From NCBI GenBank assembly GCA_030446715.1, contig JAUJMU010000006.1, positions 62,001 to 126,000 of the forward strand: 64,000 nt of DNA, given 5' to 3'. Every line of letters starts with the position of its first letter. Position 1 is the stretch's first letter. A model generated the notes under the pieces. That model had not been told where the DNA came from, did not search any database, and saw nothing but the letters and a program-made list of their open reading frames with translations. Origin of the DNA: Cytophagales bacterium (lineage in GTDB: Bacteria; Bacteroidota; Bacteroidia; Cytophagales; 172606-1). Shown piece after piece: positions 12,794-63,494 of the stretch. The position numbers and the translations under genes were made by a program.

Positions 12794-13887
12794 TTGCGCA
12801 TCACCCGCACCACCATTCTGATTATTGTCTTTTTTTGGCTACTGATTACTTTTTTCACCCTGGGGCAAGACTACTTGCATAGTCAGATCAGGGAAGAGCG
12901 GTTTTACTTTTGGGAAGCATTGTCCTTTAAAACGGGCTGGTTGCTCTACATTCCTGTTACTTTAGCGGTCTTCCGGCTTGGTAATATACACCCCATGCGA
13001 CCAGGCGCGGTAGCCAAAGCCTTGCCGGTTCACCTGGCAGGTTCGCTGCTGTCAGGGCTGTTGTACACAGTTGGGTTTGCCGCCTTCCTGAGCTTTTTAT
13101 GGAACTGGTTGATCTGCCCGGTTTCATTTGCCCAAATGTGGCAGAAGGCCCTGGCCACTAACCTCCTCTACAGTTTGTTGCTGTACTGGTTGATCCTGGG
13201 GGCACATTCCGCTTTTGCCGCGTACGGGCAAGTGGAGCAACTGCGGCTGGAGCGGGAAAAAGCCTAGAAGTTGCTCCTCTCTACCCCGTTAGAAGCCCTG
13301 AAAATGCAGTTGCAGCCCCATTTTTTGTTTAATGTGCATCATACCATTATCGGCCTGATGCAGCAGGGCCAAATCAGGAAAGCAACTGCCATGCTCCTTA
13401 AAGTAAGCGACCTGTTGCGGATCAGCCTCCGGGAACAGGTAGCGGATTTGGTACCGCTGCATAAGGAATTGCGTCTGGTGCAGCTCTACGCAGATATTCA
13501 ACAAATCCGGTTGGGAGAGCGGCTGCGGGTGGAGTGGGTGGTACCGCCCGGGCTGGAGCAGGCCCTGCTTCCACCCATGCTCCTGCAGCCACTCCTGGAA
13601 AACACGTTTAAACACGGCATTGAACCCTATGCCAAAGCGGGCGTAATTCGCCTGCAAGTGAGCGCACGGAAGATACTTTACAAATTGCCCTTCAGGACAA
13701 CGGTTTGGAAGGCGCCATGCCCTCCTTCTCCTTTGGCATTGGCCTTACCAACACGCTGGAACGGCTACACCACCTTTTCGGGGATTCGTTTGCCCTGTCA
13801 ATGGATAAAAATCCTGATTGTCCCGGCGTGACTGTCCGGATTCAGATGCCGCTCCTTTTCCCCACTCCCGTTCCGTCCACGCTATGA
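12794..13887 (+). pseudogene. LytS/YehU-type sensor histidine kinase, interrupted by a stop and a frameshift
   Basis: Residues 1-150 form a four-helix membrane sensor (TILIIVFFWLLITFFTLG to LLYSLLLYWLILGAHSAF). The signature of His_kinase (LytS-type) proteins follows: LKMQLQPHFLFNVHH with the phosphoacceptor His, then LLQPLLENTFKHG, the N-box of the ATPase domain. An in-frame TAG at 13265-13267 splits the two parts exactly where EREKA-E-KLLL is expected (GAG to TAG). A one-base loss near 13663 shifts the frame, and the ATPase end (LQDNGLEGAMPSF, GIGLTNTLERL) is read in the next frame to 13887. The start codon is a TTG at 12794. No LytTR response regulator follows. The kinase looks inactive unless the changes are consensus errors. 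Confidence 0.75.
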
Positions 13888-14031
13888 ACCTTCCCCACTA
13901 CCGGAGCCGGGTTTCGGCCGAAAGCAGGTTACTGTGTGAAAACGGGGACTGATAGCTGAGCAATGACAGGGCCGGATCATCAAATCTCCAAAGTTGGGTT
14001 TATCCTTTGGAAGCCGAAGAACATAACCAGG

Positions 14032-15141
14032 CTACCGGATGGCAGCAGAGAGAAGTTCCCAGAGCTGATTGTCAAAGGAGGAAAGAGCGGCAACCGGTGT
14101 ACCGGTTTCAGCCCCGTGACGGATCACTACAAGGTCGTGGCTGGGTACAACGTAGATCTTCCTGTCGCCGCTGCCAAGGGCGGTAATCAGGTCCTGAGGG
14201 GCAGCCGGAATGAGGCTGCGGTTATAAACCGGTGAAGTTGTTGCGTTCTCTCCTGAAGGCAGCATAAAAGAACTTTTTCCGTTGAGCCACCAGAGATACC
14301 CGTAGGAAAGATTTAATTGCTGGGAAGCAGTGGTCATGGCTGAAAAGTAAGCCGTATCCTGCAGGATCTTTTCTCCGGCCCACTCCCCCTTGGAGAGAAT
14401 CAGCAAGCCAAAGCGCGCCATATCCCGGCCGCTGCTGATCATCGTATTTATCCCCGCCAGGGAGTCGATCCGCCAGCGGGAATGCTGCATACCGATTCTG
14501 CTCCAGAGCAGTTCGCGGGTGAAGACATCCCGCGGTTTACCTGCCAGTTTATCCATCAGGTAGAGCGACTGGTGATAGGCCGTATTCCCGTAGTACCAGC
14601 GCGTGCCGGCATCGGCTATGTATCGGAGACTGTCATCCAGGCCGCTGCTCATGCTCAGCAGGTGGCAGATCAGGATCAGGTCTTCCTTTTCGGCGGATGC
14701 CTCTGACCAGCCCCTGCCCATGTATTTTGTCACCGGCTCCTCCACCGAAAGAAGCCCCTGCTGCTGCATGATGCCGTACAGGGTAGCGGCTATACTTTTG
14801 GTTGCCGAAGCAATTACTCCTGCCGAAACTGTATTCCAGCCTTTCCAGTAGGTTTCGCTTACGATCCGGCCCTTGTGAAGGATGATGAATGCAGTAGACT
14901 GATTCTGTCCGGCAAACTGCACAGCTTCATTCACCTTTGTCACGTCCCAGCCCAGCGAGGCTGCGTCTGTCCTTTCCCAGTCATCACCGCTGAGTGGCGG
15001 GTAATAATAAGCCTGCTCCCGGCCGGGAGCAGGCTCTTGCGGCCGACAGCTCAGGGTCAGCAACAGAAATGCCGGTAAAAGTAAATACCAGATCCGGCCT
15101 CCTGTGGAGTTAATCTTTTCCATACCAGCCAATATAAGCAC
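14032..15141 (-). CDS. Serine hydrolase of the class C beta-lactamase family, probable lipoprotein
   Basis: Either Met at 15141 or the one at 15123 (MEKINSTGG) can start the protein. A hydrophobic signal (WYLLLPAFLLLTLS) ends in a Cys that could be lipidated. The catalytic SxxK tetrad is SATK (Ser112 counted from 15141), the second motif is Tyr-Gly-Asn in WYYGNTAYH (residues 184-186), and HG in VIRHGAE stands for the third. This is the layout of class C beta-lactamase-like esterases and D-Ala-D-Ala peptidases. A periplasmic or outer-membrane-anchored hydrolase is likely; true beta-lactam hydrolysis cannot be inferred. The gene is complete and points away from the decayed PadR/permease pair. 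Confidence 0.85.
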   Translation of the reverse strand: MLILAGMEKINSTGGRIWYLLLPAFLLLTLSCRPQEPAPGREQAYYYPPLSGDDWERTDAASLGWDVTKVNEAVQFAGQNQSTAFIILHKGRIVSETYWKGWNTVSAGVIASATKSIAATLYGIMQQQGLLSVEEPVTKYMGRGWSEASAEKEDLILICHLLSMSSGLDDSLRYIADAGTRWYYGNTAYHQSLYLMDKLAGKPRDVFTRELLWSRIGMQHSRWRIDSLAGINTMISSGRDMARFGLLILSKGEWAGEKILQDTAYFSAMTTASQQLNLSYGYLWWLNGKSSFMLPSGENATTSPVYNRSLIPAAPQDLITALGSGDRKIYVVPSHDLVVIRHGAETGTPVAALSSFDNQLWELLSAAIR

Positions 15142-15164
15142 CTTACCGGATAAAAAGGTAAAAA

Positions 15165-15404
15165 TTATGCCCCCTGAACCAGTACATGTACTATCGCACC
15201 CTGCCGGGAGGCGGCTGGCGTGCGCAGTGAACCTTTCCGGAAGGCGCGCAGAAGACCGGCCGGCAGTGCCGTGCAGAATTTATCTTCCGGCTCCTGAGCA
15301 GCAGGTTTCCGGCGAAGGAAAAAGTAAATGAGAAGCACAAAACTGCTCCAGCAGCCGGCCCAACGGGGAGGTTTGGATCTTTTATCAGTAGCAGACTTGT
15401 TCAT
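15165..15404 (-). pseudogene. N-terminal remnant of an ABC transporter permease with a permease prefix domain
   Basis: The frame begins MNKSATDKRSKPPRWAG. In the next frame it continues as LLEQFCASHLL. Together these match the start of the prefix domain (PPRWAD-LLE-FCAPHLLEE) on FtsX-type ABC permeases of Cytophagales, which are normally about 800 residues. After some 28 residues the similarity stops, and the rest of the gene is absent. The start lies 13 bases after the end of the PadR remnant on the same strand, the usual regulator-permease order. This assignment rests on a short match. Confidence 0.5.
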
Positions 15405-15416
15405 GGCAAGGCGATT

Positions 15417-15650
15417 TTAAGGTTGGGTAACCGTGGGAATCAGGTCCCACATCCGGTTTCGGAGTTGTCTGATCCCCCACAATGCCTGGCTGCCGGCAGG
15501 GATAAGCGAATAGATGCGTTTTCTTCTGCCGCCTCTTTCCGGGGTTACTCCTCCTATCCGGGTAGTGACGCAGCCTTTCTCCCCGAACCGGTTCAAGGCC
15601 GAGTGCCCGGCACCCAGGTTCACTGAACCCAATTCTCCTAAGATATGTGA
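15417..15650 (-). pseudogene. Remnant of a PadR family transcriptional regulator
   Basis: The segment encodes GSVNLGAGHSALNRFGEKG, then TTRIGGVTPERGGRRKRIYS and QLRNRMWDLIPT. This is the recognition helix, the wing with its GGRRKR signature, and the start of the C-terminal helix of PadR regulators. The first ~40 residues of a PadR winged helix are missing, and the frame upstream is interrupted near 15645. It therefore lacks a full DNA-binding domain. PadR genes are often placed directly before FtsX-like permeases in these bacteria, as the neighbouring remnant suggests. Confidence 0.65.
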
Positions 15651-15900
15651 ACTGGTACGGCACTTGCTCCGGCAAGGGGTTTAAAGGAAGCAAATATGGC
15701 GGACAGATATTCATTTATGAATGGCAAAAGATCTTGTGAATACCCGATGGTACGCGGGGATACCCGCCAATGATTCGTTCATAATTTCGTAACCAGGCAC
15801 CGGGTCCCTGATCTACACCCGGGAATGACCAACCTGGAGCCGGTGATTTTCGGGCGGCATGAATGCTTTAGAATATTATCCGGTACACCCGACGGCCCTT

Positions 15901-16968: not shown

Positions 16969-17280
16969 CTATTCCCTGCTGAACTTCATTGCCACGCCAT
17001 TCATGCAGTAGCGCAGGCCGGTCGGTTCGGGTCCGTCGTCGAACACGTGGCCAAGGTGCGCCTCGCAGCGGGCACACAAAACTTCATCGCGGCTCATGCC
17101 AAAACTCTTGTCACTGGCAACCACTACGTTTTGCGCTTTTACCGGCACCCGGAAGCTCGGCCAGCCGGTACCGGATTCAAATTTGGTTTCGGAAGCAAAC
17201 AGGGGCAGTAAGCAGTCGGCCCACTGGTAAATGCCCTTCTCCCTGATGCCGGGCAGCTTGCTTGAACAATTTTTATTCAT
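16969..17280 (-). CDS. msrB: MsrB-like methionine sulfoxide reductase, N-terminally short and missing a zinc Cys
   Basis: The 103 residues match the second two-thirds of MsrB: KGIYQ, LFASETKFESGTGWPSF, the second zinc pair CARCEAHLGHVFDDGP, and the catalytic Cys in GLRYCMNG. MsrB reduces methionine-R-sulfoxide in proteins. Family members have about 140 residues, and the N-terminal helix is missing here. The first zinc pair, usually GIYxCxxC, reads GIYQWADC, so one of four zinc ligands has become Trp. The ATG overlaps the TGA of the upstream pseudouridine synthase (ATGA), suggesting coupled translation. The truncation plus ligand loss point to decay despite an intact catalytic Cys. Confidence 0.7.
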   Translation of the reverse strand: MNKNCSSKLPGIREKGIYQWADCLLPLFASETKFESGTGWPSFRVPVKAQNVVVASDKSFGMSRDEVLCARCEAHLGHVFDDGPEPTGLRYCMNGVAMKFSRE

Positions 17281-17903
17281 GTCCTTCCCGTGCCGCCTCC
17301 CGATTTCTTTCCGGGGCAGGGCGGAAGTATAATCCGGGAAGTGTTTGGCAGATCAACTTCCGTCACAATCCCTGCCGGTAAATCTGCCAGCAGCACTGGT
17401 CCGACCCGTACCCTGATGAGTCGCAAGGTGGGAAAGCCAACGGCCGCCGTCATTTTCCTGATCTGCCTGAATTTCCCCTCCGTTAAGGTCACCGCAATCC
17501 AGCTGGTAGGGCCATGCCGGTCATCGCGTATTCTCCGGTTCCGGGGACTTATCTCCGGAGGAGATTTCAGGGCAAAAGCGGTACAGGGCTTTGTCTGATA
17601 CTTTCCGTTTCTGAGCCCGATTTCTGTCCCTTCCCGCAGCCTTGCCAGCGCCTGTTCAGTGATCAAACCGTCCACCTGCACAAAATATTCTTTTTCAACG
17701 GCGGCCGTCCGGATATGCTCACTCATTCTGCCGTCAGTGGTGAGCAGCAGCAAGCCCTCACTGTCTTCGTCCAGCCGGCCGATGCACATGGCCTGGGCCG
17801 GAAAGGCGTAAAGCTCATTCAGCAGCTTCTTCTTTTTCACCTCCCCGGCCAGCTGACTCAGGCACCCATCGGGCTTGTGGAAAATAAAATGCCGGTGAAT
17901 CAT
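17277..17903 (-). CDS. rluE: Ribosomal large subunit pseudouridine synthase, RluE-like
   Basis: The 208-residue protein belongs to the RsuA/RluB/E/F family. It opens HFIFHKPDGCLSQ, carries the catalytic-Asp motif GRLDEDSEGLLLLTTDG (residues ~42-58), EKEYFVQVDG, and the family end motif LTEGKFRQIRKMTAAVGFPTLRLIR. Such enzymes isomerise a uridine in 23S rRNA (U2457 for RluE). There is no N-terminal S4 domain, in keeping with RluE rather than RluB/RluF. A Pro/Gly/Lys-rich tail follows LPNTSRIILPP. It is the first gene of a two-gene unit with the MsrB-like gene. Confidence 0.85.
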   Translation of the reverse strand: MIHRHFIFHKPDGCLSQLAGEVKKKKLLNELYAFPAQAMCIGRLDEDSEGLLLLTTDGRMSEHIRTAAVEKEYFVQVDGLITEQALARLREGTEIGLRNGKYQTKPCTAFALKSPPEISPRNRRIRDDRHGPTSWIAVTLTEGKFRQIRKMTAAVGFPTLRLIRVRVGPVLLADLPAGIVTEVDLPNTSRIILPPCPGKKSGGGTGRT

Positions 17904-17990
17904 CGAAGAGTATCTGATCAGGAAAACAATTGGAAACGCCCGGGCAATTTAACAACCGGCTTCGGCATTGAACGGCCGGACACCCGTTAC

Positions 17991-18412
17991 GGTCAGATGA
18001 TTTCTCTGCCAGCGTATTTTCCGGGTACGCGAAAGGACTCCAGTAGCGTTCTGCAAATTGGCCCGGCGCTTTCGGGTCGGGCACGTCGTAGTGCTGTATG
18101 GGCATCTGGTGGGCTTTTTTTCGTCCGGATTACCTGCTCAAGGGAAGCCTTCAGATTGTTGACCGAACTGGCCTGAGGGGTATAGAGGTTATCGGGAAAT
18201 ACATCGAAAACATACCGGCTGACAATCTTTTCGCGTTCGCTGAGGGTAGCTTCAAGGTAAGCATCACTTACCCCGCGGATCATCAGCTCAGGGGAAAGAA
18301 TCAGTGCCAGATGCGGCAGAGATTCGAAAATTCTCTCAAACGGTACGGGTACCGGGGCTGATTCTCCCCGGGAAGCAGCGGATAAATTACGCAGGTCTTT
18401 CCTGCCATTCAC
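17991..18412 (-). pseudogene. Frameshifted fragment of a PAS domain sensor protein
   Basis: One frame gives FERIFESLPHLALILSPEL, VSDAYLEATLSEREKIV and DVFPDN, then ASLEQVIRTKK. The next frame takes over with MPIQHYDVPDPKAPGQF and ERYWSPFAYPE. Joined, they are a complete N-terminal PAS domain of the kind found at the front of Bacteroidota hybrid histidine kinases. After about 115 residues the similarity ends, with no further PAS or kinase domain. The remnant ends just upstream of the pseudouridine synthase start. Confidence 0.6.
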
Positions 18413-18452
18413 GCCCTTAAGATAACACACCTTTAAGATGAAGGGATGAAGT

Positions 18453-18671
18453 ATACTACGGTACATTCCGGCAAAGGACCTCACCCCCCGGCCCCCTCTC
18501 CTCAGGAGAGGGGGGCCACAGCGGCGTTTTTCTCCCCTTTCACTGGAAGCTGCGATCAGGACACATCTTTTAATCTGCTGTAAAGCAGTCACGTGTAGCT
18601 CCCCTCTCCCAGGAAGAGGGGCTGGGGGTGAGGTTCCTGGAGAGCAGCAACTGGTACATGTACCGTAGTAT
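18453..18671. repeat. 219-bp nested palindromic element
   Basis: Outer arms ATACTACGGTACAT (18453-18466) and its exact complement (18658-18671) enclose a second pair, CCTCACCCCCCGGCCCC... (18479-18514) against ...GGGGCTGGGGGTGAGG (18601-18633). The centre of about 85 bases has no coding frame. The layout suggests a mobile or structured intergenic repeat. Confidence 0.7.
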
Positions 18672-21299: not shown

Positions 21300-21414
21300 A
21301 CGGCTAGATGGCTGAATTGTTTGGTTCTGAAGCATCATGCCGGTCAGACAGCCATACAACCATATGCCCACACAAATTGAAAGGTTTTCACGTTGCCATT
21401 GAGTAAGGCTTACT

Positions 21415-21956
21415 ATGCGGATTGCTGGTTGTTTATCGTTGTTGCTGATCCTTGCAGTTGTCGGGGGCTGTTGGCTTACCGTTGGTACCGGCAGTTTGAC
21501 GGAAATCCGGCCGCTGCCTTTTCAGAGCCGAAAGTTGAACTGTACAGTTTTTTTATCAAAAGTTTCGACCTCAATCAGACCACCGCTGACGTTCAGCTGC
21601 TTATTGACAATACGGCCCCGCTGGGGCTGACCGCCGATAGTTTGCAGTACACCGTCTACATTGAAAGCACCGAAGTGACCAGCGGCAGTTACACGCAGCC
21701 AATCCGGGTAAAAGCCGGCGATACTACTTTGATTACCATTCCCGTCACCGTCGATAACCACAAACTGCTCAGTACCCTGCGCAATCTTGAGGGAAAGCGC
21801 GACAGTGCCGATTATACGCTCAATGCGGAGGTGTTCACGGATATGCCCTTCCTGAAGGGTCGGCCCCTGCAGATCAGGATCACCCGCCGGATGCCCGTTT
21901 ACATCGTTCCCGAAATGAAGTTTCTGCAGGAAAACCTTCTGAAGCCTGGCCTCTGA
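21415..21956 (+). CDS. LEA type 2 (WHy-like) protein, single domain, signal segment in a different frame
   Basis: ATG 21415 opens MRIAGCLSLLLILAVVGGCW, a lipoprotein-type signal. The following sequence (YRWYRQFDGNPAAAF to MPVYIVPEMKF) is read one frame over, open from 21393. Adding one G at 21473 joins them. The body (ADVQLLIDNTAPLGLTADSL, SGSYTQPIRV, TTLITIPVTV, EVFTDMPFLKGRPL) is clearly homologous to the first domain of the LEA-like protein at 25934. The second domain is absent, and the product ends LLKPGL. LEA type 2 domains are Ig-like folds found on envelope proteins; the function is unknown. The two paralogues flank the large beta-propeller gene. Confidence 0.6.
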
Positions 21957-33416: not shown

Positions 33417-33439
33417 CAGGATACCGGCAGCATGGGTGC

Positions 33440-33801
33440 TGATTGCAAGAGCCCTCGGTTTGCTGATTGTGGTCAGGGAAGGTACCAAAGAGATCGGCAT
33501 CCGCAAGGCTCCCGGCGCAACGCTCTTAGCCAATCATCAGCCTGATTTTACAGGAATCCATTGTGATCACCAGTGCGGCCGGCTACTTCGGTCTGATGGC
33601 GGGTACCGGCCTGATTGCAGACGTGGATTACCTGCTCAAGAAGTTCAAGGCCGAAGGCGAGTTCTTTGCCAATCCGGAGGTAAACCTGCCCATCGCCGTC
33701 ACGCAGTGGTGCTGCTGGTGGTGATGGGTGCTCTGGCCGGACTGATCCCCGCCGCTAAAGCCGCTCAGGTGAATCTGGTCGTAGCCCTGAAAGACGAGTA
33801 A
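33440..33801 (+). pseudogene. C-terminal remnant of a MacB-type ABC permease
   Basis: Three frames together encode VREGTKEIGIRKAPGAT, then LILQESIVITSAAGYFGLMAG, DYLLKKFKAEGEFFANPEVN and LLVVMGALAGLIPAAKAAQ, ending VNLVVALKDE. This is the C-terminal FtsX-like domain of MacB/YknZ permeases, where KERTKEIGIRKALGA and GLIPA-KAA are the signature segments. The first ~290 residues are missing, and at least two frameshifts interrupt the rest. It lies immediately after the GT-C gene. Confidence 0.8.
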
Positions 33802-33832: not shown

Positions 33833-34111
33833 ATGGAACCCAAAGAAAACCCGGTAAAGGATAAAAACGCCGACATTCTGCTCGACCGCAAGGAAGGCGT
33901 GCTGGCCATCAAGGAAAGTATGCTGCAGTTCAGGAAGGACAGCACATTTGTGGAAGTCGAAAAATCCCCCGGCAGTTTGAAAAGAGATTGGTTAAAAACG
34001 GGAATTTCCGACGGAATCAACATTGAAATCCTGTCGGGGGTTAAGCGGGCTGATAAGATCAAAACAAAGGAAAGTCCCGGAACTGACAAAGAGGAGCCCA
34101 GGGGCAGCTAG
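33833..34111 (+). pseudogene. C-terminal remnant of a MacA/HlyD-type periplasmic adaptor
   Basis: The 92-codon frame contains DILLDRKEGVLAIKESMLQF, TFVEVEKSPGSL and KTGISDGINIEILSGVKRADKIK. This matches the beta-barrel and membrane-proximal end of RND/ABC periplasmic adaptor proteins, which normally have ~400 residues with a lipoyl and coiled-coil region before this point. Only the end remains, now with its own ATG. With the MacB remnant upstream it marks a lost MacAB-type efflux operon. Whether the short frame is translated is unknown. Confidence 0.7.
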
Positions 34112-34236
34112 TGCCTGGTAGCCTTGAGTGCTGGATTTTAAATGCTGGATTTTACAGGCGTTACGCAACATAATTAATCTGACATTCAAAATTTAACCTG
34201 CCGGCAGGAATCCACAATTTAAAATTGCGCAGCTAC
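34112..34236. repeat. Intergenic repeat, copy B, shared with 63.5 kb
   Basis: The end of this stretch, CACAATTTAAAATTGCGCAG (continuing CT), is the exact complement of 22 bases at 63505-63526. Further related pieces (TGCTGGATTTTAAATGCTGG, GGATTCC) surround it. The motif AGCTGC-CAATT also opens the copy at 35268. Confidence 0.65.
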
Positions 34237-34291
34237 TTGATTGGTATTCCACGGCAAATGCCTGAAACCAACTGCAAGACAATGGCGTTAC

Positions 34292-34339: not shown

Positions 34340-34744
34340 ATGGAATTACTCTTTGAAAACAATCTGGCGGGCGACGACTTTGCCCTCATCAAGCAGGCCC
34401 GGGCCGGAGTGGAACGCGGGAAAGCCGATGAACTGGCCCAGCAGGCCGGACTCACCGATAAGGACATGGCCCGCATTCTCTCTCTTTCGGAACGGACGCT
34501 GCACCGGCTCCGGCCGGAGGTGCTGCTGGACAACAACGCCTCTGAGCGACTCTTACTGCTGGAGGGACTGATTCGCCACGGACTGGAGGTCTTCGATGGA
34601 CGGGCCCAGGTGCTGGGCCGTTGGCTGCGGGTGCCCTTGCCCGAGCTTCGCCGGCAAGCCCCACTGGCTTTACTCGATACGGTTACCGGCTTCAGCATGG
34701 TTCATGCCGTGCTTGGACGCATAGAACACGGCGTCTATGCCTGA
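34340..34744 (+). CDS. Antitoxin of the Xre/ParS (Xre-MbcA-ParS toxin-binding) type
   Basis: From ATG 34340 the protein has 134 residues. Residues ~15-55 form a helix-turn-helix (ADELAQQAGLTDKDMARILS, LSERTLHRL). The C-terminal half (RLLLLEGLIRHGLEVFDGR, LGRWLRVPLPELRRQAPLALL, DTVTGFSMVHAVLGRIEHG) is the domain that binds and blocks RES toxins: W-L-x-x-P-x-x-x-L-x-x-x-x-P is diagnostic. The HTH half usually autorepresses the operon. The RES toxin gene follows within 24 bases. An open frame extends to 34241, but the predicted promoter lies within it. Confidence 0.9.
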   Translation: MELLFENNLAGDDFALIKQARAGVERGKADELAQQAGLTDKDMARILSLSERTLHRLRPEVLLDNNASERLLLLEGLIRHGLEVFDGRAQVLGRWLRVPLPELRRQAPLALLDTVTGFSMVHAVLGRIEHGVYA

Positions 34745-34767
34745 GGGTGGCCTGCCGGTACAACCCG

Positions 34768-35246
34768 ATGGACGGGGTGGTGTACAGATTGATAAAGGAG
34801 CGGTTTCTGGACACACCCTTATCGGCTGAAGGAGCACGTCGCTACGGAGGACGCTGGAATCCTCCGGGGGTGGGTATTCTCTACACATCGGCCAGCCCGG
34901 AACTGGCCCTGCTCGAACAACTGGTCCACCTGCCGGAATTGCCCTACGGGGACCTGCCCAGGTTGTTTTTACTCACGCTCACTTTGCCCGATCCGCCCGA
35001 ACAGTTGAGCCAACTGCCTGCCGGCTGGCGCGCGAGGAGGCCGGTTACCAGACCTGTCACCGGCTGCTGGCCGATTGGCTCGGGCATCCTCATGTGCTGG
35101 CAATAGGTGTTCCTTCGGCAGTAGTGCCGGAGTCAATCAACTACCTGCTGCATCCGCTGCATGATTCTTATGCTCAGATCCGGATCCTGCGCAGTGCTCC
35201 CTTTGAGATTGATCCCCGGCTGTGGCACAGGCACTCCTCTGAGTAA
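34768..35246 (+). CDS. RES domain toxin, frameshifted near its middle
   Basis: ATG 34768 starts MDGVVYRLIKERFLDTPLS, then GARRYGGRWNPPGVGILYTS and LALLEQLVHLPELP. These are the RES domain with its conserved Arg (GGRWN), Tyr (LYTS) and Glu (LLEQLVH), which in characterised members degrade NAD+. The frame shifts at 35027 (one G short: LPAGWAREEAGYQTCHRL is expected). The end HRLLADWLGHPHVLAIGVPS...RLWHRHSSE is read one frame over to TAA 35244-35246, with the Ser/Asn-containing PSAVVPESINYLLHP in place. With the base restored the protein has normal length, about 159 residues. Alternative start: GTG 34747. Confidence 0.75.
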
Positions 35247-35445: not shown

Positions 35446-35684
35446 TCAGGCCAGCTTGAGCCCTTCTATCTGGGCTTTTTTCAGTACTGCCTCAATTCCG
35501 TTTTTGGAAATGGTGCGGATAGCGGTGGTAGATAGCTTCAGCGTAATCCACTCCCCTTTGAGGGAACAAAAAAGCGCTTGGTCTGAAGGTTAGGATAAAA
35601 CTTACGCTTGGTTCTATTGTTGGCGTGGGAAACATTGTTTCCGACACGTGTTCTTTTTCCGGTTATTTGACAGACTCTTGCCAT
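35446..35684 (-). CDS. rpmB: 50S ribosomal protein L28, with an apparent one-base deletion
   Basis: ATG 35684 begins [20 protein letters not shown], then [20 protein letters not shown], unmistakable L28. After SKG the frame runs into a stop. One frame over, the rest is perfect L28: [35 protein letters not shown], ending at TGA 35446-35448. Adding one G to the run of four (forward strand CCCC at 35553-35556) restores a 79-residue protein. L28 is a ribosomal protein expected to be intact in a living cell, so the break is most simply a consensus error. The gene stands alone here; rpmG, often adjacent, is not seen. Confidence 0.93.
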
Positions 35685-35777: not shown

Positions 35778-36005
35778 TCACTCGGTCAGCCCCATAGCAG
35801 TGGGCGGAGCATCAGAAGCCTTATCCGGCGGGTCGGTTTTTTCGTTTTTGGTACCGTAGGGGCAATGACGGCACCGGCTCCGGCAGCAGTAACCGCGCTT
35901 GAGGTGATAACAGCCCGTAAACACCAGCAGGCCGTGCTCGTCAAAGTAATAATCTTCCGGCATTAACCCCTTGTTCTTCAGGAACAGCCTCTCCCGCTCA
36001 TCCAT
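35778..36005 (-). CDS. Small Cys-rich DUF5522 protein
   Basis: From ATG 36005 the protein has 75 residues: MDERERLFLKNKGLMPEDYY, DEHGLLVFTGCYHLKRGYCC, then RSRCRHCPYG and a Pro/Asp-rich tail. The Y-H-L-x-R-G-Y-C-C-x-x-x-C-x-H-C-P-Y-G pattern is the DUF5522 signature; its Cys/His set suggests metal binding. Function is unknown. A start at 36065 (MQTFLAKPWFSIYKNN) would add 20 residues and lies next to the divergent aminotransferase start. The very long frame that continues upstream to 36836 is an antisense shadow of that aminotransferase gene. Confidence 0.8.
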   Translation of the reverse strand: MDERERLFLKNKGLMPEDYYFDEHGLLVFTGCYHLKRGYCCRSRCRHCPYGTKNEKTDPPDKASDAPPTAMGLTE

Positions 36006-37830: not shown

Positions 37831-38470
37831 AATGAGTGTGTTTTACTACTATGTTATGGCAAATATAGTCTTATAAACAATACCTTGCAATACAAAGTAC
37901 CTTATTTTCTTTCCGGTTTTGCCCGATTTACTTAACCAATCCCTATGCCAAACCTGAAAATGTTTTTTTACCGCAGGTAAGCCCCTTTTTTCCTGAATAT
38001 GTGTCCGTTTACGATTGGAAATATCCGATTCCGGACACCCTTGCTCCTGGGACAATCAAATGTAAATGTACCTGATGCGTTCAGCCACCCGTTTATTGCT
38101 GTTTTCCCGTTACGCGGCGAATACCTCCTTTTTTCCTGATGAGGTAATTATGGCTATAAGATTCACATTCTGCTCAGGAAGTTGCACCCGAATCAAAATT
38201 TTTAATTATTACAACCTTGGTTTACATTCTCCGGAAAAGTAACCCGCTTTTTGTGCAGATTTTCAAATTCAGATGCTTTAGCTGCGCAAATGCCCGGTTA
38301 ATTAAAGTTGAACTTTGTTAAATTCTGGCTTCCGGCACCCTGCCGCCGGGAAAACCAAAAGAAGGGACATCCGTAACAATCCATTTTTCAGGTAAAGCGA
38401 ACCACTGATTATTTCTTTACGGAGTCGCCCAGACGGTAACCGGCAGCAAGCATCTGGTGCGGATAAACAA
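37831..38470. other. AT-rich intergenic region
   Basis: About 640 bases with no supported coding frame. The first part probably holds the promoter of the small exported protein. No trace of the missing 5' part of the downstream metallo-hydrolase was recognised. Confidence 0.45.
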
Positions 38471-39341
38471 TGGGAAGCGGATTCTGCTCGTTTTCGGGCG
38501 ACATCGGCCGGTTTACCAACCGGATTCAGAAAGCGCCCCAGCCTGTTCCGCAGGCAGATGTAATCATCTGTGAGTCTGCGTACGGCAATGCATTCCATTC
38601 GGGGATTGAAAATACAGAGACCAGACTGGAAGCGCTGGTCATGGAAACGTGCGGTGAAAAGGCGGCAAGCTGCTCATTCCGGCTTTCAGCGTGGGCCGCA
38701 CGCAGGAACCGATCTACTCCCTCAACCGGCTGGCGGAAGAGGGGCGATTGGGCGATTTCAAGGTTTTCGTAGACAGTCCGATGTCGGTTTACGCCACGGA
38801 AATTGTCAGAAGTCATCCGGAATGTTTCAACGAAGAAATGCTCGGATACATCCGCACCGATGACCCGGACCCGTTTCATTTTACCCACCTGCACTACATT
38901 ACTGAGGCTGAGGATTCTAAACTGATTCAACTGGTGGATGAACCCTGCATCATTATTTCTTCTTCCGGAATGATGGAAGCCGGCCGGATCAGGCACCACC
39001 TGAAAGCAAACATCTCCGATACCCGGAACACGATTCTGATCACCGGGTACTGCGAACCCTCCACGCTGGGTGGCAAGCTTATGGCCGGTGCCGACACCGT
39101 AAATATTATGGGAGAAGCGTACGAAGTCAAAGCTTCCGTTGAGGTGATGAAGGAATACAGTGCCCACGGGGACTTCGGTGACATAGCTAAGTTTCTGATC
39201 AGCCAGGACAAGGAAAGAATAAAGCAGCTTTTTCTGGTACACGGGGAGCCCGATGCCATGCAGAAGCTGAAGGATGACCTTGGAGATATGGACTACGCCA
39301 GTATTGTGATGCCAAAATACCGGTCGTCGTACGAGTTTTAG
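38471..39341 (+). pseudogene. 5'-truncated metallo-beta-lactamase/beta-CASP RNA hydrolase
   Basis: The recognisable protein starts in mid-domain with FSGDIGRFTNRI, APQPVPQADVIICESAYGN and ENTETRLEALVMETCG. One base is missing at 38657-38660 (GEKGGKLLIPAFSVGRTQEP expected), and the frame continues from 38691 with RTQEPIYSLNRLAEEG, FVDSPMSVYATEI, CIIISSSGMMEAGRIRHHL, VEVMKEYSAHGDFGDI and LVHGEPDAM. These are the beta-CASP and RMMBL parts of KH-less CPSF73-like hydrolases. The first ~190 residues, with the HxHxDH zinc motif, are absent, so no active enzyme can result. Only the 3' half is left in the genome here. Confidence 0.8.
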
Positions 39342-39450: not shown

Positions 39451-39556
39451 ACAGTAAAAGAGGCAAAACAAAGTTTTGCCAAGGAAAAGGTGTAGGCAGA
39501 GACTACCCTCAGCCGCAGGGGGGCAAAGCCGGAATATTCTCACTGGCGCCAGAATA

Positions 39557-39767
39557 AGATTTGAGCCGGGAGACGTAAGACCGGAGAGGTCAGATGGAGA
39601 GACTGCGTTCAGTTATAGAAAGCGTCTTAACTTGTCGGAAAAGAAAAGTGTCGGTAAATCTTTCGGATTTATGAAATCCGAAAGATTTTTCCGAAAGGAT
39701 ACGACCTGGTCTATATCTCCTGCTCCCAATCTCCCATCTTACGTCGCCCGTCGCCCGGCTCAAATCT
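39557..39767. repeat. Inverted copy of the serS 3' end, enclosing a hairpin
   Basis: AGATTTGAGCCGGGAGACGT (39557-39576) recurs inverted at 39737-39767, where it overlaps the serS stop codon; the second copy has a 7-base tandem addition. Between them AAATCTTTCGGATTT (39656-39670) pairs perfectly with 39674-39688 and is followed by TTCCG. Confidence 0.6.
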
Positions 39768-49593: not shown

Positions 49594-50631
49594 ATGCGAC
49601 TGGACAAAGAAGAACGGGTAAAGATTGAGCAGCTACGGCGTCAGACGCGGGACAAGAAGCAGCATGTTCGTTTGTCGGTGCTGGTCATGCTCGATGAGGG
49701 ATATACCCATGAAGTGATCGCAGTAAGCCAGGGAATTGATTCCGATACAGTGGGCAACTACAAGCGAAAGTATCTTCAGCAAGGACTCGATGGGTACCTA
49801 AAGGACAATTACGTGGCTTACCAGGGAGAACTCAGCTTGGAGCAACTCCAGGCGGTGGACCAAAAAGTGCAGGAAGGCTTGTATGCAACGGCAAGAGTGG
49901 TGGAGACTGGATATGTGGAGAATTTAAGGTAGACTACTCAGACTCGGCAGTAAGAGCAATTCTAACCAAACTCGACTTTGTCCACAAGCAAGTGGAATAT
50001 TCGTGCCAGCTAAAGCTGATGAGCAAAGCAGCTCGGGTTTGTAGCCCAGTTTGAGCAGGTGATTAAAGAGTTGCCGCAAGACACGGTGGTCTATTTCACC
50101 GACGCTACCCATCCTACTCACAATACCCAAAAGAGCAAAGCCTGGATCAAAAAAGGACAGGAAAAGCATATTGCGGCCAACTCAGGCAGGAAAAGGGTCA
50201 ATCTCAACGGGGCCGTTAATGCGTTAGATCCTTGTGAGGCAGTAGTAGTGGAAGCTCAAACGGTCAATGCCCAAAGCACTATTACCCTCTATGAAAAACT
50301 GCTGGAGAACAACCCGGGCAAAAAGCTGGTATTGATTTGTGATAATGCGCGCTACTACCGCAGCCAACTCCTACAGCAGTGGCTGGAAGGGCAGCCTTTG
50401 ATTCAGCAGTGGTTTCTGCCCACTTACTCACCCAACCTCAATATCATCGAAAGGCTGTGGCGGTTCATGAAAAAACAGGCCATCGGCCTTTCATTCCATC
50501 CCACTTACCAAGCATTTAAATCGAGTATCCTCCACTTCTTCGAGCATCTGGACCAGTACGAGTATGAACTCAAACGTCTACTCACCCTCAAGTTTCAAAT
50601 CCTTGATTCCCCTCTCTCTAATTCTACTTGA
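49594..50631 (+). mobile_element. IS630 family transposase, broken by frameshifts
   Basis: The first frame (49594-49932) has the helix-turn-helix of IS630 proteins (LVMLDEGYTHEVIAVSQGID, DTVGNYKRKYLQQGLDGY). The second (50059-50631) carries the DDE catalytic core: VYFTDATHPTHNTQ, LVLICDNARYYRSQ and LPTYSPNLNIIERLWRFMKK with the last Glu. Between them (49933-50058) the bridging protein is spread over all three frames (FKVDYSDSAVRAILTKLDF, VPAKADEQ, FVAQFEQ), so at least three frameshifts are needed. No terminal inverted repeats were identified, so the element edges are uncertain. It lies within the polysaccharide locus, opposite to the flanking genes. Confidence 0.8.
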
Positions 50632-50742
50632 AAGAGGGCCGTTCTGTGTACCTATAAAATCCGGAAAACCACTCTGAGAAGAGTATATTATGCGTATGTC
50701 CTTCAGAAATTCACCTTCTTACATTTAATCAGTGCTACTAAT

Positions 50743-52363
50743 ATGGAACATCATTCCAACCACTATCTGAACTGGGGTTTTTTTGCGCTCATTGCCAAAC
50801 TTTTTTGTTTATATTTTTCGCTTATCAGTTTCAAATTAATTACCCCCTGAAAACCAGTCTGTTATTCGTCCCGAATGGGGATACGGAAGGCTACTTCAGA
50901 CCAATCGAAGCTTTTGTTGATGGTCACGGGTACAGCTCCATAACTTCACAAGTCGGCGAATCCCAAAATTACAAACCCTACACCGACAGGATGCCCGGCC
51001 TACTGCCAGTTTATGCTCTCTTTACTTCTTTTTGGGTAAGGTATACGCCCGGTCCGCGTTCATACTTTTTCAGTTTGCTGTTAGCTGTATTTCGGTTCTT
51101 GCTCTCGGTTGGATGGTTTATTTGCTGTTCAGGTCAAGAACATTACAGATTATTGTGACAGTATTATATGCTTTCAGTACGTTTAATTCCCTTTTGGACC
51201 ATTACGGACTCTCTGACAGTTTATCTATTTCATTTTTTATCATTGCTTTATACTTTTTTGTGAGATTTTATGTCTCTCTTACACAAAACAATTTTGCAAG
51301 TTCTGACATTCATGAAACGCCGGCTTCCTCTCGTAAACCCAATCTTTTCCTGTTGATCAGCGGCTTTTTTTTCACTTGGTCTATTTTTATCAGGCCAGCG
51401 GCTGGCGTATTTTTTGCATGGTTGCTGCTTATTCTCTGTTGGATAACATTCTCTGCAAACAGGTCAGCAGTTTTGAAGCTGATACAGCATCTGTTTTTAT
51501 TCTCTCTGCCACTTACCATTGCCTTATCCTTGTGGACCTACCGGAACTATATACAAACAAGTAAGTTTATTCCTTTTCAAACGCCTTATCAGGAGATATA
51601 TGAGGAGCATACACTGCTGCTTAACAGCAAAGTTATTCCTATGACCGGCGGCGATTTTCAGCCTTGGGTGCAAGGATCGGAAGGAGAATTTATTGCCAGA
51701 GGAAAAACAGAAGAAAATATATCATTGAAAGGAAACACGTCAAGAATCCCTTTTTCAGAGAATGACTTTACTCCGGATTTTACAGTTGATTCCCTGCTCA
51801 AGCTACGTATCTATTACCAAAAAACCTTCAACAGTGAACTTTCTGAACAAGAGCACAATCATTATAAAGCCCTTACGCTTGATTATTGTTACCGCTATAT
51901 TGAGACATTTAAAATGCATCACCCTTGGCGTTTTTATTTCTTTTCCTACGTTGAAATGACTGTAAAGTTTCTTTTTGTGAAACACTTAGGTCTTTTTCCC
52001 TTTCCACCGCGTATTGAGATGACTTTTTTGCAATTTTTCATCAAAGGCATCTACATCATATTCTACAATGTTATTGTATTACTGGGAATCATAGGCTTTA
52101 TTCAACTGGCTGGTTGTAAAAACCGTTTTCCCTTTTTACTAGGCACAATTGTTATTCCTTATATATTACTAATCACTGTTCACTACTTTTGCCGGGAGCA
52201 CCGCTATTTTACAATGTTATATCCGTTATTTGTTGTTTTCGCTGGATATACCCTGTATAGTGCAAAGCCGTTCCTGATCAGACTATTCGCCGGATTAAGT
52301 TTAAAAAGGGGAAAAAGTAATATGAGTTTGACCCGTTCATATTTTAACAAGCGGCACGTTTGA
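50743..52363 (+). CDS. Integral membrane GT-C-like glycosyltransferase, two apparent one-base deletions
   Basis: ATG 50743 begins MEHHSNHYLNWGFFALIAKL. The frame changes at a run of six T (50801-50806) into LFIFFAYQFQINYPLKTSL, and again at a run of five T (51029-51033) into LGKVYARSAFILFQFAV. Adding one T at each place joins everything into about 540 residues. The first loop (GDTEGYFRPIEAFVDGHGYS, PYTDRMPGLLPVYALF) with its acidic residue and RMPG-x-LP is typical of ArnT/PMT-like GT-C enzymes using lipid-linked sugars. About ten helices and a C-terminal hydrophobic tail follow. The gene is AT-rich and opposite to the rest of the locus, which suggests insertion together with the IS630 element. 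Confidence 0.7.
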
Positions 52364-52764
52364 ATTAGATTTTCCTTATACCGCGGAGGTTGAAAAAGGC
52401 CGGACAACAACGCCTCGCCGGCAGGTTTTTACCGCTGATTCTCCCTACGCCGACCAGCATATTACTCGTCAAATGCTTTGTGCCTCTCCCTCTAAATCCT
52501 TTCTCTCCGTAGTCCTGCTGTTCCATTTTTCCAAGCGAGGAATACATTTGCCTGTAAACCCTGAAATATGGTCCATTATAGTTATTTTTTGTTCTGCCAA
52601 GCCAGTTGAACTGCTTCTTATTTGAATCCCTTGGTGCAGATATAATCACTTGCCTAAAGTGAACTGATCCGAAACATATATGGTAGTGGTAAAAATCAAA
52701 TTGATTTGGAAAGATTGTAACGGACAATGAAAAGCCAGATGACAAGTTCATGAAAGAAGTCAGA
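52364..52764. other. Unassigned stretch after the GT-C gene
   Basis: About 400 bases. A minus-strand frame of 128 codons (52365-52751) has a protein-like middle (NWLGRTKNNYNGPYFRVYRQ) but no family is recognised. It could be a degenerate gene fragment. Confidence 0.3.
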
Positions 52765-52956
52765 GGGTGCGTTTCAAAATTACACGGTCAAAAATTTACC
52801 CCAAATTATCTTCGGCTTGATAAGGTGAAACGGACGGATAATGCATGAATCTGATTCAACTCTACGGCTGATCTTGCCCAAAGCGGGTTCAGCCCTTATC
52901 GGGTGCAGAATAATATTCTTAGATTTTTACAAGGGGCGGGATTTTGAAACGCACTC
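52765..52956. mobile_element. 192-bp MITE-like element with 16-bp terminal inverted repeats
   Basis: GGGTGCGTTTCAAAAT (52765-52780) and ATTTTGAAACGCACTC (52941-52956) are inverted with one mismatch. The interior has no open frame of note. No clear target duplication was seen at the edges. Confidence 0.65.
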
Positions 52957-52984
52957 GAACCAATGAAGCAGGAAGCCGGGTCAG

Positions 52985-54020
52985 CTACAAACAAAACAAC
53001 CTGACGAAGTCTTTGTAATTGGAAGCTTCGGCTGTTTGCAGATTAAGCGACCCGATCTCCTGAAGATTATAATCCTTTACTTTTACCATCAGCTCGGGCA
53101 ATTGGCTCACCTGATCAAACAACAGGTATGACTGGTGTTTCAGCAAGGCCTGCATGAATGGGGTGTTAATCGTAATGACTGGTTTTGCAAAAGACAGTGC
53201 CAGATCAACCGAGCCGGAATGCTCAACGTTCCGAAACGGAAACACCATTACATCAGCAGCCCGGCAGAAATACTGAACCTTTCGCATGTCAATGAACTGA
53301 TTGGGAAAAAGGATGTTCGGGTGTTGTCTGGCTAAGGCATCAATCCTACGTCCGTATGCTTTCATGTCACTGGTTCCGGCAATCAACAGGTAATCTTCCG
53401 GACCGGCAATCTGTAGAAAAGCGGAAATCAGTTCTTCGATACCTTTATAAGGCTTAACCATTCCAAAGAAAAGATATACAAAAGCCGAGGCTGGCAGGTT
53501 CAGGTATTGCCGCCCTTCTTCCCTGGTTGCTTCACCGGGGTAGTAACGATGAAAAGGCACATCATGAATGACATAAACCTTGCCCGGATTGATCCGGTAG
53601 AGCCTTACAATTTTCCGCTTGGTGGTTTCTGAATATACTCTTATCCGGTCACAGCGGCGCAAAAACCACCAAGTCATCCATCTCTCCACTTTTACCCAAC
53701 GACCGGCATGATTCTGCATATTGTGCAGGGTATGAATGACCGGGAGCCTTTTTGAAATGTTTCAGGTAACTGATTTCCAGTACAAAGGTAAAGCACTTGA
53801 TCAGCGTTACCAGCAAGGTTTTTCCGAGAATGAAACTTTGAATCCAGTCAAAATATAATACATGAGGCCTTGCTTGCCGGACTGCCGCAGATGTAGCAAA
53901 AAAATGACGTGACCGGGCTCTGGCCACGTTAAATCCATTCTGTTTCAGAAGTTCAATTAACTGATACTGAAAAGGATTTGCTGATCCGGCATCGGGCAGA
54001 AAAAGAATTATTTTGGGCAA
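52985..54020 (-). CDS. Family 4-like glycosyltransferase, one frameshift
   Basis: The N-terminal frame (54020 down to about 53730) begins MPKIILFLPDAGSANPFQYQ and ends in HFKKAP. The remainder (from about 53735 to 52985) continues VIHTLHNMQNHAGRWVKVER. One surplus base near 53745 separates them. The protein then shows RIRVYSETTKRKIVRLY, LFFGMVKPYKGIEELISAFL, DYLLIAGTSDMKAYGRRID and VMVFPFRNVEHSGSVDLALS with the donor-binding acidic/Gly region, and AKPVITINTP. It is a GT-B enzyme of about 345 residues. It is the last gene of the right-hand minus-strand block before the MITE. Confidence 0.75.
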
Positions 54021-54026: not shown

Positions 54027-54961
54027 TTATTTTACTGATTTTGCGAAGTTTTTCCATCGGTTCATGAACTGACAACTACCAGTCAGATAGGTCAGCCCCT
54101 CAAGTTCAAATTTGGTTCTGATCTTGCCCACATAATGCTTACAGGTGGCATTGATTATAGCTTTCTTCAGATCTACATCATATGCAGAGGAAAGATGTTT
54201 TACTCCACCAGAAGAATCTGAAGCCAGCATTGCAAACAATGTCTGCTCAATGCGATGCATTATAAAAGGTTGGTCCATAGGGAGTCGGGATAACCACTGT
54301 TCTACTTTTTCATAATTTAATGCATATCTGTCAATAACAAACAAACCTGAATTCAACCGTTCGGATACAGAAACACCTGTGTATTCTTTTATCATCTCTC
54401 TTGGAAAAATATAGGCATCATCAGGATCACGGTTAAAAACTGCTGGTCCGTCCTCCTGATAACAGTGAAACATCAGCTCTTCGGTTGTTTGAAGAAAAGA
54501 ACATCGGTGTCTACAAATAGTATTCTGTTTCCCCTTGAATAATGACCAATGTCCAGCAGCTTCAGCATTAGTCGCTTTTTTTGTCTGTACGCTTGTATTT
54601 TCGGGTAAGCTTTGAACCGGACGAGGGCATCTTTTTCTGATTGATGAAAAGGAATGATTGAACACCCGGGAAATTGAAAAGTCAGTAGTTCTATGTCTTT
54701 CTCACCTAAACTTCCATCGTCATGAAACACCCAAGGGAAGGCTTTTTCACAAGCCAGATTCAAAGACTTAGCTGAGCAGATTCCCATCAATAGGTCGCGC
54801 TTACATATCAGAGTATGTAATGAAAACGGGATTGAGGTATCTACCTCGGGGGAAGGAGAAGTGAAAGCTACCTGTCTGGAGATCCTGACGCGTTTTATGT
54901 TCTGGTAAAAAGTCCGGTAAAGCTTTCTGAAAATTTTTTTTATAATCTGCAAATTAGACAA
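54027..54961 (-). CDS. Glycosyltransferase with a DxD motif (GT8-like), one apparent deletion
   Basis: The N-terminal frame from Met 54961 (MSNLQIIKKIFRKLYRTFYQ) runs to FVDTDVLFFKQP, where D-x-D is the nucleotide-sugar metal site of GT-A enzymes such as GT8. It then stops. One frame over, EELMFHCYQEDGPAVFNRD, LNSGLFVIDRYALNYE and HRIEQTLFAMLASD continue to the TAA near 54027. LNSG-x-F-x-I is a GT8-type acceptor-side motif. One G restored near 54482 (CAACCGGAAGAG) gives about 311 residues. It would add a sugar to the glycan on the cytoplasmic side. It begins 20 bases after the stop of the upstream membrane transferase. Confidence 0.75.
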
Positions 54962-56667: not shown

Positions 56668-56784
56668 AAAAAATCAACAAAAGAAAGAATAAAAAGTCCA
56701 CAAAATGTTGCTAAATTTTCGCAGAAGAATACTATAGATTGGAAAACCGCTGCCAATTATAAACCTACTCAATTGTTCATCCTG

Positions 56785-58867: not shown

Positions 58868-58871
58868 ACAT

Positions 58872-61501: not shown

Positions 61502-62721
61502 TCCGAGAGGCTATTTAATTCCTGATTCAATTCCTCGTAGGCTCCTTTGTTGTACTGCTCCGCAAAAGCATAGGCACTGGCACTGACTGAGCGGTAAAGG
61601 TTCTGATCGGAGAAAAGCAGGCAGATGCATCGGGCAAATTCAGCCGGGGTATCTGCTGCCAGAAACGCTTTGCCGATACCGGCTTCCAGACCTTCGGCAC
61701 CTACTGTGGTGGTCACCAAAGGCATTGCATACCCAAGCGCCTCTATGTTTTTGATTTTCAGACCTCGCCCGGCCTGAATCGGATTGATGGCAACATCGGC
61801 TTGTTCATACAAGCTGGCTATATCTTCCACCTGACCTAGTTTTGTACAGTTGGCATATTTACCGATTTTCTCACAAACTCTTCCTGCAATGATCAGCCGG
61901 GTATCCGGAAATTCATCCGACACCAATGGGAACACCTCATTGACAAAATACTCCATTGCCATTACGTTGCTTTCGTAAGCAGAACCAATAAAAACCAACC
62001 TGCGTCGGATATTCTGGTACAGACTTTTTGGTCTGAGCGTAACCGGATGCCCCAGCAATATTACTTTCCGCCTTGTGAGCGTCTGGAAATAGCTTTTTTC
62101 GCGGGACTGAATGGCCATCACAATATCGGCCCGGTTCAGTGCCTTCGCTTCCTGCCGGGGTGAAGTGTGGAAAACGTTCTGCAGAAACCTCCTGTCACGG
62201 ATAGACTGAGCGTCAATGGTATCAATAATTTTCAGCGTGCGGTGATCAAAGCTTTCCAGTATTCTGGAGTAGAAAATGTAAGCACAGATTACAATACCGA
62301 ACGACTTATCCTGAAGAATCTGCTCCACTTGCTTTTGGACAAAAGGCGTATATTTTTCATCCACCCCCATATGACCACCGTACACCAGCTGTCTCCTGAC
62401 CTGATTCACCCTCAGGACCTTTTTTAACAGATTTTTTCCCCGCCGCCAGAGGGAATAATGCTGTGGGTTTGAAAGGACAAAAAAGAGCTTTTGCCCCCAG
62501 TATTCCTGCATGGAGGGCAGGTCGCGTTCAGTACCACTGATATAGAGAAAGTACACATCAAGACCTCTGCTCTGTAACCATAGAATTAAAGCATAAAGTC
62601 GGGCTCTGTCACCGGCATTTTGCGGATGAGTGGGAGACGGGGAAACAATCAGTACTTTTTTTACACACCGGTAATAAAATGCGCAGGTTAAAAAGCCGGA
62701 TAAAATTTTGTGGTTTTGCAC
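61498..62721 (-). CDS. GT-B type glycosyltransferase (family 4-like)
   Basis: The 407-residue protein may start at 62721 or at a later Val/Leu near KKVLIVSPSPTHPQNAGDRA, where the family homology begins. The donor half shows RLVFIGSAYESNVMAMEYFV, EFPDTRLIIAGRVCEKIGKY, DIASLYEQADVAINPIQAGR and GLKIKNIEALGYAMPLVTTT, a pattern of GT4 enzymes with a glycan-binding Gly-x-K-x-K segment. TTVGAEGLEAGIGKAFLAAD follows. The stop overlaps the next gene by four bases, so both are translated together. It lies five bases after the methyltransferase gene upstream. Confidence 0.85.
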   Translation of the reverse strand: MQNHKILSGFLTCAFYYRCVKKVLIVSPSPTHPQNAGDRARLYALILWLQSRGLDVYFLYISGTERDLPSMQEYWGQKLFFVLSNPQHYSLWRRGKNLLKKVLRVNQVRRQLVYGGHMGVDEKYTPFVQKQVEQILQDKSFGIVICAYIFYSRILESFDHRTLKIIDTIDAQSIRDRRFLQNVFHTSPRQEAKALNRADIVMAIQSREKSYFQTLTRRKVILLGHPVTLRPKSLYQNIRRRLVFIGSAYESNVMAMEYFVNEVFPLVSDEFPDTRLIIAGRVCEKIGKYANCTKLGQVEDIASLYEQADVAINPIQAGRGLKIKNIEALGYAMPLVTTTVGAEGLEAGIGKAFLAADTPAEFARCICLLFSDQNLYRSVSASAYAFAEQYNKGAYEELNQELNSLSE

Positions 62722-62725
62722 TTCC

Positions 62726-63494
62726 CTACCTGGTCTTAAACCCGGCGGCGGCCATCAGCATGCCCAGTTTGACGCTGATTTTTTTGCCAGAGAAGCTTTC
62801 TTTTTTAGCCCGTTGCATTGCATTGTAGTGATCAGCCAGGAAAGGCTGCATATGCCAGGCAACATTTCTGACATCATCTGTCGTCTTGCGGAATATTTCC
62901 GTTCTGCCGTCCAGAATCTCCAGAAACTCCCAGTTGGGGTCTTTTTTCATAAAGTCGCACAGTATTTTTCCGGAAAGCAGATGAGTATCATCCACCATGA
63001 GAATTCCGTTTTTCCGGAGGTGAACCACCGAGTAAAACCAATCAATAAATGGCCACGGAAAGGCATGCTTGCCATCAATCAGAATAAAATTCAGGGGATT
63101 ATTCAACAGAAGCTTTGGCAATGCCTCCTCGGAAAGTTCATTGATAAACCTGTGGTGCAATAAACTGATTTTTTTCTCCGCCGCATATTTCCTGATCACA
63201 CTGATTTCCCGCTCGCCGGTGTGATACAAATATGATGACTCCCCTTGCTGCCAAACACCAGCGTCGAAATGCCCGAACCTATTTCGAGGGTATAATCTCC
63301 TGCATTTACATGATTGTATATGTACTCAAGCGCCGACTCCCCAAGCCCCAGCAGGCAGTGGCATTTGCGGCCAGACTCTCCTGCTGATGATCAGAAAAAA
63401 CGCTGAGAGGTGTTACCGCATAACCACCCGGCATTTCAGTCTCTCCCTGGTGGACAGGAGGAGCATCTCTGATGATTTCCTTTATGTGTAGCAT
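62726..63494 (-). CDS. SAM-dependent methyltransferase (Methyltransf_24-like), two apparent one-base deletions
   Basis: Three frames make one protein of about 257 residues. MLHIKEIIRDAPPVHQGETE to ACWGLG comes first. ESALEYIYNHVNAGDYTLEI with GSGISTLVFGSKGSHHICIT (motif I) follows after one G restored at 63339-63342. EREISVIRKYAAEKKISLLH, NFILIDGKHAFPWPFIDWFY and GILMVDDTHLLSGKILCDFM come after one G restored near 63214. The order is that of small-molecule or glycan methyltransferases with the D-G-x-H motif. It lies five bases before the GT4 gene and probably belongs to the same transcript. Confidence 0.72.

Follow-up and report, generated by a model that had tools for sequence, protein, structure and literature searches.

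The subject of this study is a set of broken genes, rpmB (ribosomal protein L28) among them, in a stretch of 64,000 nucleotides from the draft genome of a Cytophagales bacterium (contig 10, bases 62001-126000; hereafter the window). The draft comprises 6,425,628 bases in 25 contigs, with a completeness of 98.15% and a contamination of 1.33%. A first-pass annotation, made from the letters of the window, had listed ten one-base losses, attributed them to homopolymer under-calling in a long-read consensus, and warned that any pseudogene count for this genome would be inflated. We compared the listed breaks and a number of further lesions with related genomes, of which G001 and G002 belong to the same genus and G003-G007 to the same family, and weighed decay in the cell against errors in the assembly.

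Broken genes and relics in the window

The features concerned are listed below in window coordinates (ORF, open reading frame).

12794..14011, + strand: LytS-type sensor kinase; in-frame stop at 13265-13267, frame change near 13657-13663
16975..17912, - strand: pseudouridine synthase and SelR (MsrB) domain, joined at about 17.34 kb
17993..18592, - strand: PAS-domain protein relic, matching a G001 ORF over about 122 of its 642 residues; the frame changes near 18116
21393..21956, + strand: LEA_2-domain lipoprotein-like gene, its lipoprotein-like start in a different frame from the LEA_2 domain
33430..33801, + strand: MacB-type permease relic, the match confined to residues 319-450 of 450 and the frames alternating
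33866..34111, + strand: HlyD-type membrane fusion protein relic, matching residues 230-309 of 309 only
34621..35246, + strand: RES-domain gene, with a frame change near 35026
35446..35684, - strand: rpmB (L28), the sole copy found in the genome, split into two frames near 35553-35559
38340..39341, + strand: beta-CASP metallo-hydrolase, with 428 bases absent at 38490/38491 relative to the G001 homolog and a frame change near 38657-38664
50723..52363 (approximate), + strand: putative GT-C-like membrane protein, with two proposed frame changes, at 50801 and 51029
52985..54020, - strand: glycosyltransferase group 1 gene, with an extra-base-type (or two-base-loss) shift near 53747
54027..54961, - strand: putative GT8-like gene (a name given by the first-pass annotation), with a proposed frame change near 54482
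62726..63500 (approximate), - strand: putative methyltransferase, with two proposed frame changes

Gene-scale losses relative to the related genomes were found at several of these loci. In the beta-CASP gene, positions 38408-38490 match contig 262 of G001 at 4820-4901, and the sequence from 38491 onwards matches position 4391 downwards; the absent stretch corresponds to residues 93-232 of the G001 protein, before the Beta-Casp domain. An intact paralog is present in the same genome (locus L075), where the metallo-beta-lactamase matches span approximately residues 14-184 and Beta-Casp starts at 270. The MacB and HlyD relics retain matches to 132 of 450 and 80 of 309 residues, respectively. Frameshifts in both directions were detected in the MacB relic, near 33535 and near 33706, the second of which was flagged as a possible gene overlap by the filter of the hidden Markov model (HMM) used for shift detection. 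The HlyD relic adjoins rpmB, and a gene of the same HlyD type adjoins rpmB in G002 too. The shift near 18116 in the PAS relic was seen with two ORFs, and that at 53747 in the glycosyltransferase group 1 gene with four relatives, one ORF from each. The list of breaks was incomplete, and the lesions of the window as a whole are not all losses: the list lacked the extra-base-type shift at 53747, the 428-base gap, the MacB, HlyD and PAS relics and the in-frame stop of LytS. The gap and the three truncations are lesions that base-calling does not make, and in-frame stops, found in LytS and at loci L069, L158 and L173 elsewhere in the genome, are not produced by a lone indel error.

Support for the breaks already listed varies from gene to gene. 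The one-base loss near 38657 in the beta-CASP gene is borne out by five ORFs of relatives, all five of which give a shift of the loss type (among those listed, the ORFs showing it come from G001, G002 and G006). The His_kinase domain of LytS lies in one frame (Pfam E 5e-21) and the downstream part in another; a loss at 13657 was also called by the ab initio HMM, as was the loss at 35026 in the RES gene, whose first frame holds domain positions 2-99 of 157. The RES domain is a toxin type of bacterial toxin-antitoxin pairs. The break of the LEA_2 gene is supported by the different frames of its start and its domain, the identity to its relative being only 40%, and half a Methyltransf_24 domain was recognized in the 167-aa piece of the methyltransferase that was tested (Pfam E 7e-6). 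For the GT-C-like and GT8-like genes, no relative was found among the fetched sequences, the pieces tested matched no Pfam family, and the breaks are proposed from the open frames. The listed sites fall in eight genes, not in nine as had been stated, and six of the ten lie in genes with at least two lesions, a count that includes the double sites already proposed in the GT-C-like and methyltransferase genes.

The junction between the pseudouridine synthase and the SelR domain is, from its sequence, a possible deletion junction: the SelR ORF of G001, taken from stop to stop, has 172 extra N-terminal residues. The junction may instead be normal gene order; G001 matches were found on separate contigs.

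Damage in essential and other genes

The tests beyond the window were made on a 1322-kb sample of the present genome, window included. Conserved genes were defined by at least 55% identity, with duplicate loci removed and tblastn queries filtered by coding score; apparent tblastn events from shadow ORFs, such as that at 35998, antisense to an aminotransferase, proved false. No break was found among the 44 conserved genes of the ribosomal and rpoBC region (28.7 kb), vs 10 broken among 79 elsewhere (67.6 kb; Fisher p 0.014). Full-length open frames were also found for rpoB, dnaE, valS, ileS, leuS, gyrA, a GyrA/ParC-like and a MetG-like gene; the names ileS, leuS, parC and metG are our reading of the match pattern, ileS and leuS being ValS-related. 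At the rate of the breaks listed for the window, 7.7 would be expected in 49.4 kb of essential genes (P of none 4e-4). Random consensus errors, as the main cause of the breaks, should strike essential and dispensable genes alike; such an even distribution was not observed, rpmB being the exception to the sparing of essential genes.

The genome of G002 shows the pattern expected of errors. In its ribosomal and rpoBC region (L262 and L255; contig 87) five of 21 genes are broken, vs none of 44 in the present genome (p 0.002). G002 looks like an error-prone draft with an untrustworthy pseudogene count.

Breaks of conserved genes are also in excess over the other relatives. Ten of 123 are broken in the present genome, vs 0/81 in G004 and 0/67 in G006 (p 3e-4); the corresponding numbers are 11/71 in G002 and 1/24 in G001, where the single broken gene is the match of the broken beta-CASP piece of the present genome. 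Before duplicates were removed one gene appeared broken in G004 (1/85) and one in G006 (1/76), in rows that were dropped because the query ORF was judged to be antisense to ribosomal genes; with both rows kept, the comparison is 10/123 vs 2/161 (p 0.006). When clean relatives supplied the queries, 13 of 74 genes were broken or truncated in the present genome, vs none of 28 in G006, 30 in G004 and 8 in G001 (8/26 in G002), although in a few of these 13 the match is short and partial and may reflect just a shared domain. Gene-scale truncations and nonsense changes occur beside the frameshifts, with in-frame stops inside aligned stretches at L069, L158 and L173, for example. Transposase-like copies, e.g., at L147, are present as well.

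Frameshifts were additionally counted with the HMM, in control samples of 460 kb (G004), 260 kb (G006) and 333 kb (G002). After removal of likely gene overlaps, 47 robust shifts (28 losses and 19 gains) remained in the present genome, three in G004, one in G006 and nine, all losses, in G002; these counts are rough lower bounds. The ratio of losses to gains differs between the present genome and G002 (28:19 vs 9:0; Fisher p 0.02), the detector being less sensitive to gains in G002, not in the present genome: with the robust filter, 34/108 planted losses and 39/108 planted gains were recovered here, and 29/92 and 16/92 in G002. Prior to filtering, the final detector found 20/47 planted deletions and 22/58 planted insertions in the present genome, 7/38 and 13/47 in G006, and 22/47 and 6/51 in G004. 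The HMM coding fraction is 77% here, 82% in G004 and 86% in G006. The genome is also smaller than those of its relatives, as expected in reductive decay: the five genomes of the family with completeness of 99% or more measure 8.8-9.8 Mb (the 8.8-Mb genome is that of G001, with 7% contamination), and the present one 6.43 Mb at 98% completeness.

Homopolymer runs were examined at the listed sites and across the sample. Half of the ten sites fall in runs of at least four identical bases, and 51% of random 31-base zones touch such a run, a zone of this width being our estimate of how closely a shift can be located by eye; enrichment at the listed sites was therefore rejected. The shortening of runs across the genome that is expected under consensus error was not seen in the sample: its run-length ratios closely resemble the ratios in G004 and G006, with long runs not clearly depleted. 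The test is a weak one, since the suspect G002 was no outlier either.

The break in rpmB

The Pfam profile of L28 matched a single locus of the genome in two overlapping frames (E 4e-18 and 0.01), and in a DNA alignment with relatives, from which the G006 row was excluded as being on the wrong strand, rpmB was one base short near 35553-35559. The break proposed near 35553 is confirmed by these two observations. Both halves are conserved apart from the break, which amounts to a single net loss. A second, intact rpmB elsewhere, a case that the first-pass annotation had raised against its own reading, was not found by the profile in the genome, the next-best matches having E 0.18 or worse. Among 39 relatives surveyed for L28, 37 have exactly one match each, with no inner stops; the two without a match have completeness of 72% and 84%. 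It is hardly to be expected that the part of the genome lacking from the draft, a few percent, contains an intact copy: the assembly, in 25 contigs and 98.15% complete, leaves room for one, but none of the 37 matching relatives has more than a single match. As no other L28 was found, the loss is a single net one and the halves are otherwise conserved, the break is probably a leftover consensus error.

Slippage of the ribosome was considered for this site. In the zero frame the break reads A AAG GGG, which we take to be of the slippery form X XXY YYZ, and a minus-one shift there enters the frame of the conserved second half. In these respects, the heptamer and the direction of the shift, rpmB resembles known minus-one frameshifting on slippery heptamers; it differs from it in lacking strong downstream structure and in that the 37 matching relatives read L28 in one frame. 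Folding downstream of the break is weak (z -1.8, with 12 of 200 shuffles folding as well; z -1.1 for a longer stretch), and neither a stimulatory structure nor conservation across relatives was found, 37 of 39 having an unbroken match and the other two having none. The case for programmed slippage in rpmB is weak. Loss of one base from a stretch of this kind can be enough to create a slippery motif. That rpmB is truly broken in the cell, with full-length L28 made by minus-one slippage on A AAG GGG or with a ribosome that tolerates truncated L28, appears very improbable; if it were so, a ribosomal protein would have been caught mid-decay inside an eroding genome. No usable statement on the dispensability of L28 was found in the literature searched, passages of PMC4014445 and PMC10931766 included.

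Decay and consensus error as proposed sources of the breaks

Gene-scale losses relative to relatives, mixed types of lesion and the absence of lesions from the essential genes examined are observed in this genome. Our inference is that the small lesions seen in dispensable genes are genuine as well; we favor recent decay of most of the broken genes together with a few consensus errors, rpmB probably among them (probability about 0.6). Under this reading, indels, nonsense changes and deletions of hundreds of bases would accumulate in dispensable genes, essential genes would be kept intact by selection, and a low rate of residual single-base errors of the draft would be superimposed, the break in rpmB likely being one of these. 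One clean loss each was found in three conserved genes: rpmB, locus L156 (cystathionine beta-synthase-like, with 80% identity to G004) and locus L143 (a regulator of the LuxR type). Three such losses per 96.3 kb predict 1.5 in the essential genes (P of none 0.21); they are thus compatible with clean essential genes, and a low error rate can explain them, with rpmB best placed in this group. Pseudogene counts mix two things, breaks that look mainly biological in the present genome, since the essential genes examined are spared and gene-scale losses stand alongside, and mainly technical in G002.

The principal rival holds that nearly all one-base losses are long-read consensus errors and that the genes are intact in the cell. 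In its favor is the broken rpmB, no other L28 having been found; error-ridden drafts do occur among the relatives, as the 5 of 21 broken ribosomal-region genes of G002 demonstrate, and broken genes retain the codon-position patterns of other genes. Assembly errors are reported to account for many supposed pseudogenes (PMC11017572), and genes are reported to be liable to fragmentation by long-read errors (PMC12007338); the artefacts described there share with the present breaks that single bases break conserved genes, one of them ribosomal. The present lesions differ from such spurious pseudogenes in avoiding the essential genes tested, in that gains, nonsense changes and missing stretches of hundreds of bases occur among them, and in the long runs, which are not clearly depleted. 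No break was found among the 44 genes of the ribosomal and rpoBC region, seven further long core genes are open over their full length, and gains are common beside losses (19 vs 28); there is no homopolymer excess at the listed sites beyond zone chance, and gene-scale losses and in-frame stops also speak against this rival. We regard error as the general cause as doubtful, if by no means negligible. What the first-pass annotation proposed may thus be retained for rpmB, likely an error, and not for the window as a whole, where gains, gene-scale losses, intact core genes and runs that are not clearly depleted speak against homopolymer under-calling. Some inflation of the pseudogene count by errors is still likely, and on this point the warning of the first-pass annotation was justified.

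At the opposite end, all breaks may be taken as real, rpmB included, with truncated L28 tolerated or L28 made by slippage. The break is present in the assembly in a single-copy gene, at a heptamer of X XXY YYZ form with the right direction and modest downstream structure (z -1.8). Against this stand the 37 of 39 relatives with an unbroken L28 match, the other two lacking a match, the weak structure signal (12 of 200 shuffles; z -1.1 for the longer stretch) and the possibility that the loss itself created the motif; we consider this account improbable.

Several observations weigh against decay as the main source of the breaks. The one L28 gene found is broken, and the genes at L156 and L143 are sound apart from a single loss in each. 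Few essential genes were sampled, and the contrast between essential and other genes weakens to 0/44 vs 7/76 (p 0.046) when three multi-copy rows are dropped. When the queries were ORFs of the present genome, the controls also showed apparent breaks or truncations, in 2/38 genes of G006 and 4/52 of G004. HMM sensitivity differs among genomes, so that HMM rates are not strictly comparable, and contig 10 has about twice the HMM shift density of the other contigs in the sample (25 in 464 kb vs 22 in 858 kb; p 0.014), for which lower coverage on this contig could be the reason. Relaxed selection was not seen in the broken genes: the ratio of codon positions 1+2 to position 3 is 0.27-0.47 in the relics and broken genes of the window except rpmB, and its median is 0.36 in other genes. 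This pattern fits errors as well as very recent decay and does not distinguish the two. Genome size by itself is no proof of reduction.

Recent decay would place this genome beside Sodalis glossinidius, whose early genome erosion is treated in PMC7067036 and PMC3091646. Recently broken genes, truncated relics and transposase-like copies are common to both, as are two features noted above for the present genome, a lower HMM coding fraction and a size below that of relatives. It differs from Sodalis in that there is no known host or lifestyle, in that one ribosomal gene is apparently broken, and in that the load is sampled rather than determined for the whole genome. If decay is the correct reading, a family of large genomes includes a lineage at an early stage of erosion, with 9-Mb relatives available for comparison. 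The break rate in ribosomal and rpoBC genes vs the rest provides a cheap check for other drafts.

Repeated sequences were observed in and around the window. The segments 34210-34242 and 63497-63628 belong to a dispersed element whose copies have some 30 bases in common; it occurs, in both orientations, at about 20 places in 1.3 Mb of the present genome (19 and 21 per query) and at 3-4 in the G002 loci examined. Short stretches of 39455-39720 match about two dozen G001 contigs, several of which carry them as plus/minus pairs spaced by about 170 bases, and by this arrangement the segment is taken to be a palindromic interspersed repeat; few copies of it were found in the sample of the present genome. 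The repeat at 52680-52960 is common to L075, L146 and L149 of the present genome and to G002, and L146 and L149 carry multi-copy broken ORFs as well. Upstream of the broken GT-C-like gene, the fragment 50344-50628 has a relative in G002 at 68% identity and looks like a transposase end from the appearance of its peptide. A type IX secretion domain was also detected, and the relatives of a 1001-aa protein are mostly Bacteroidota.

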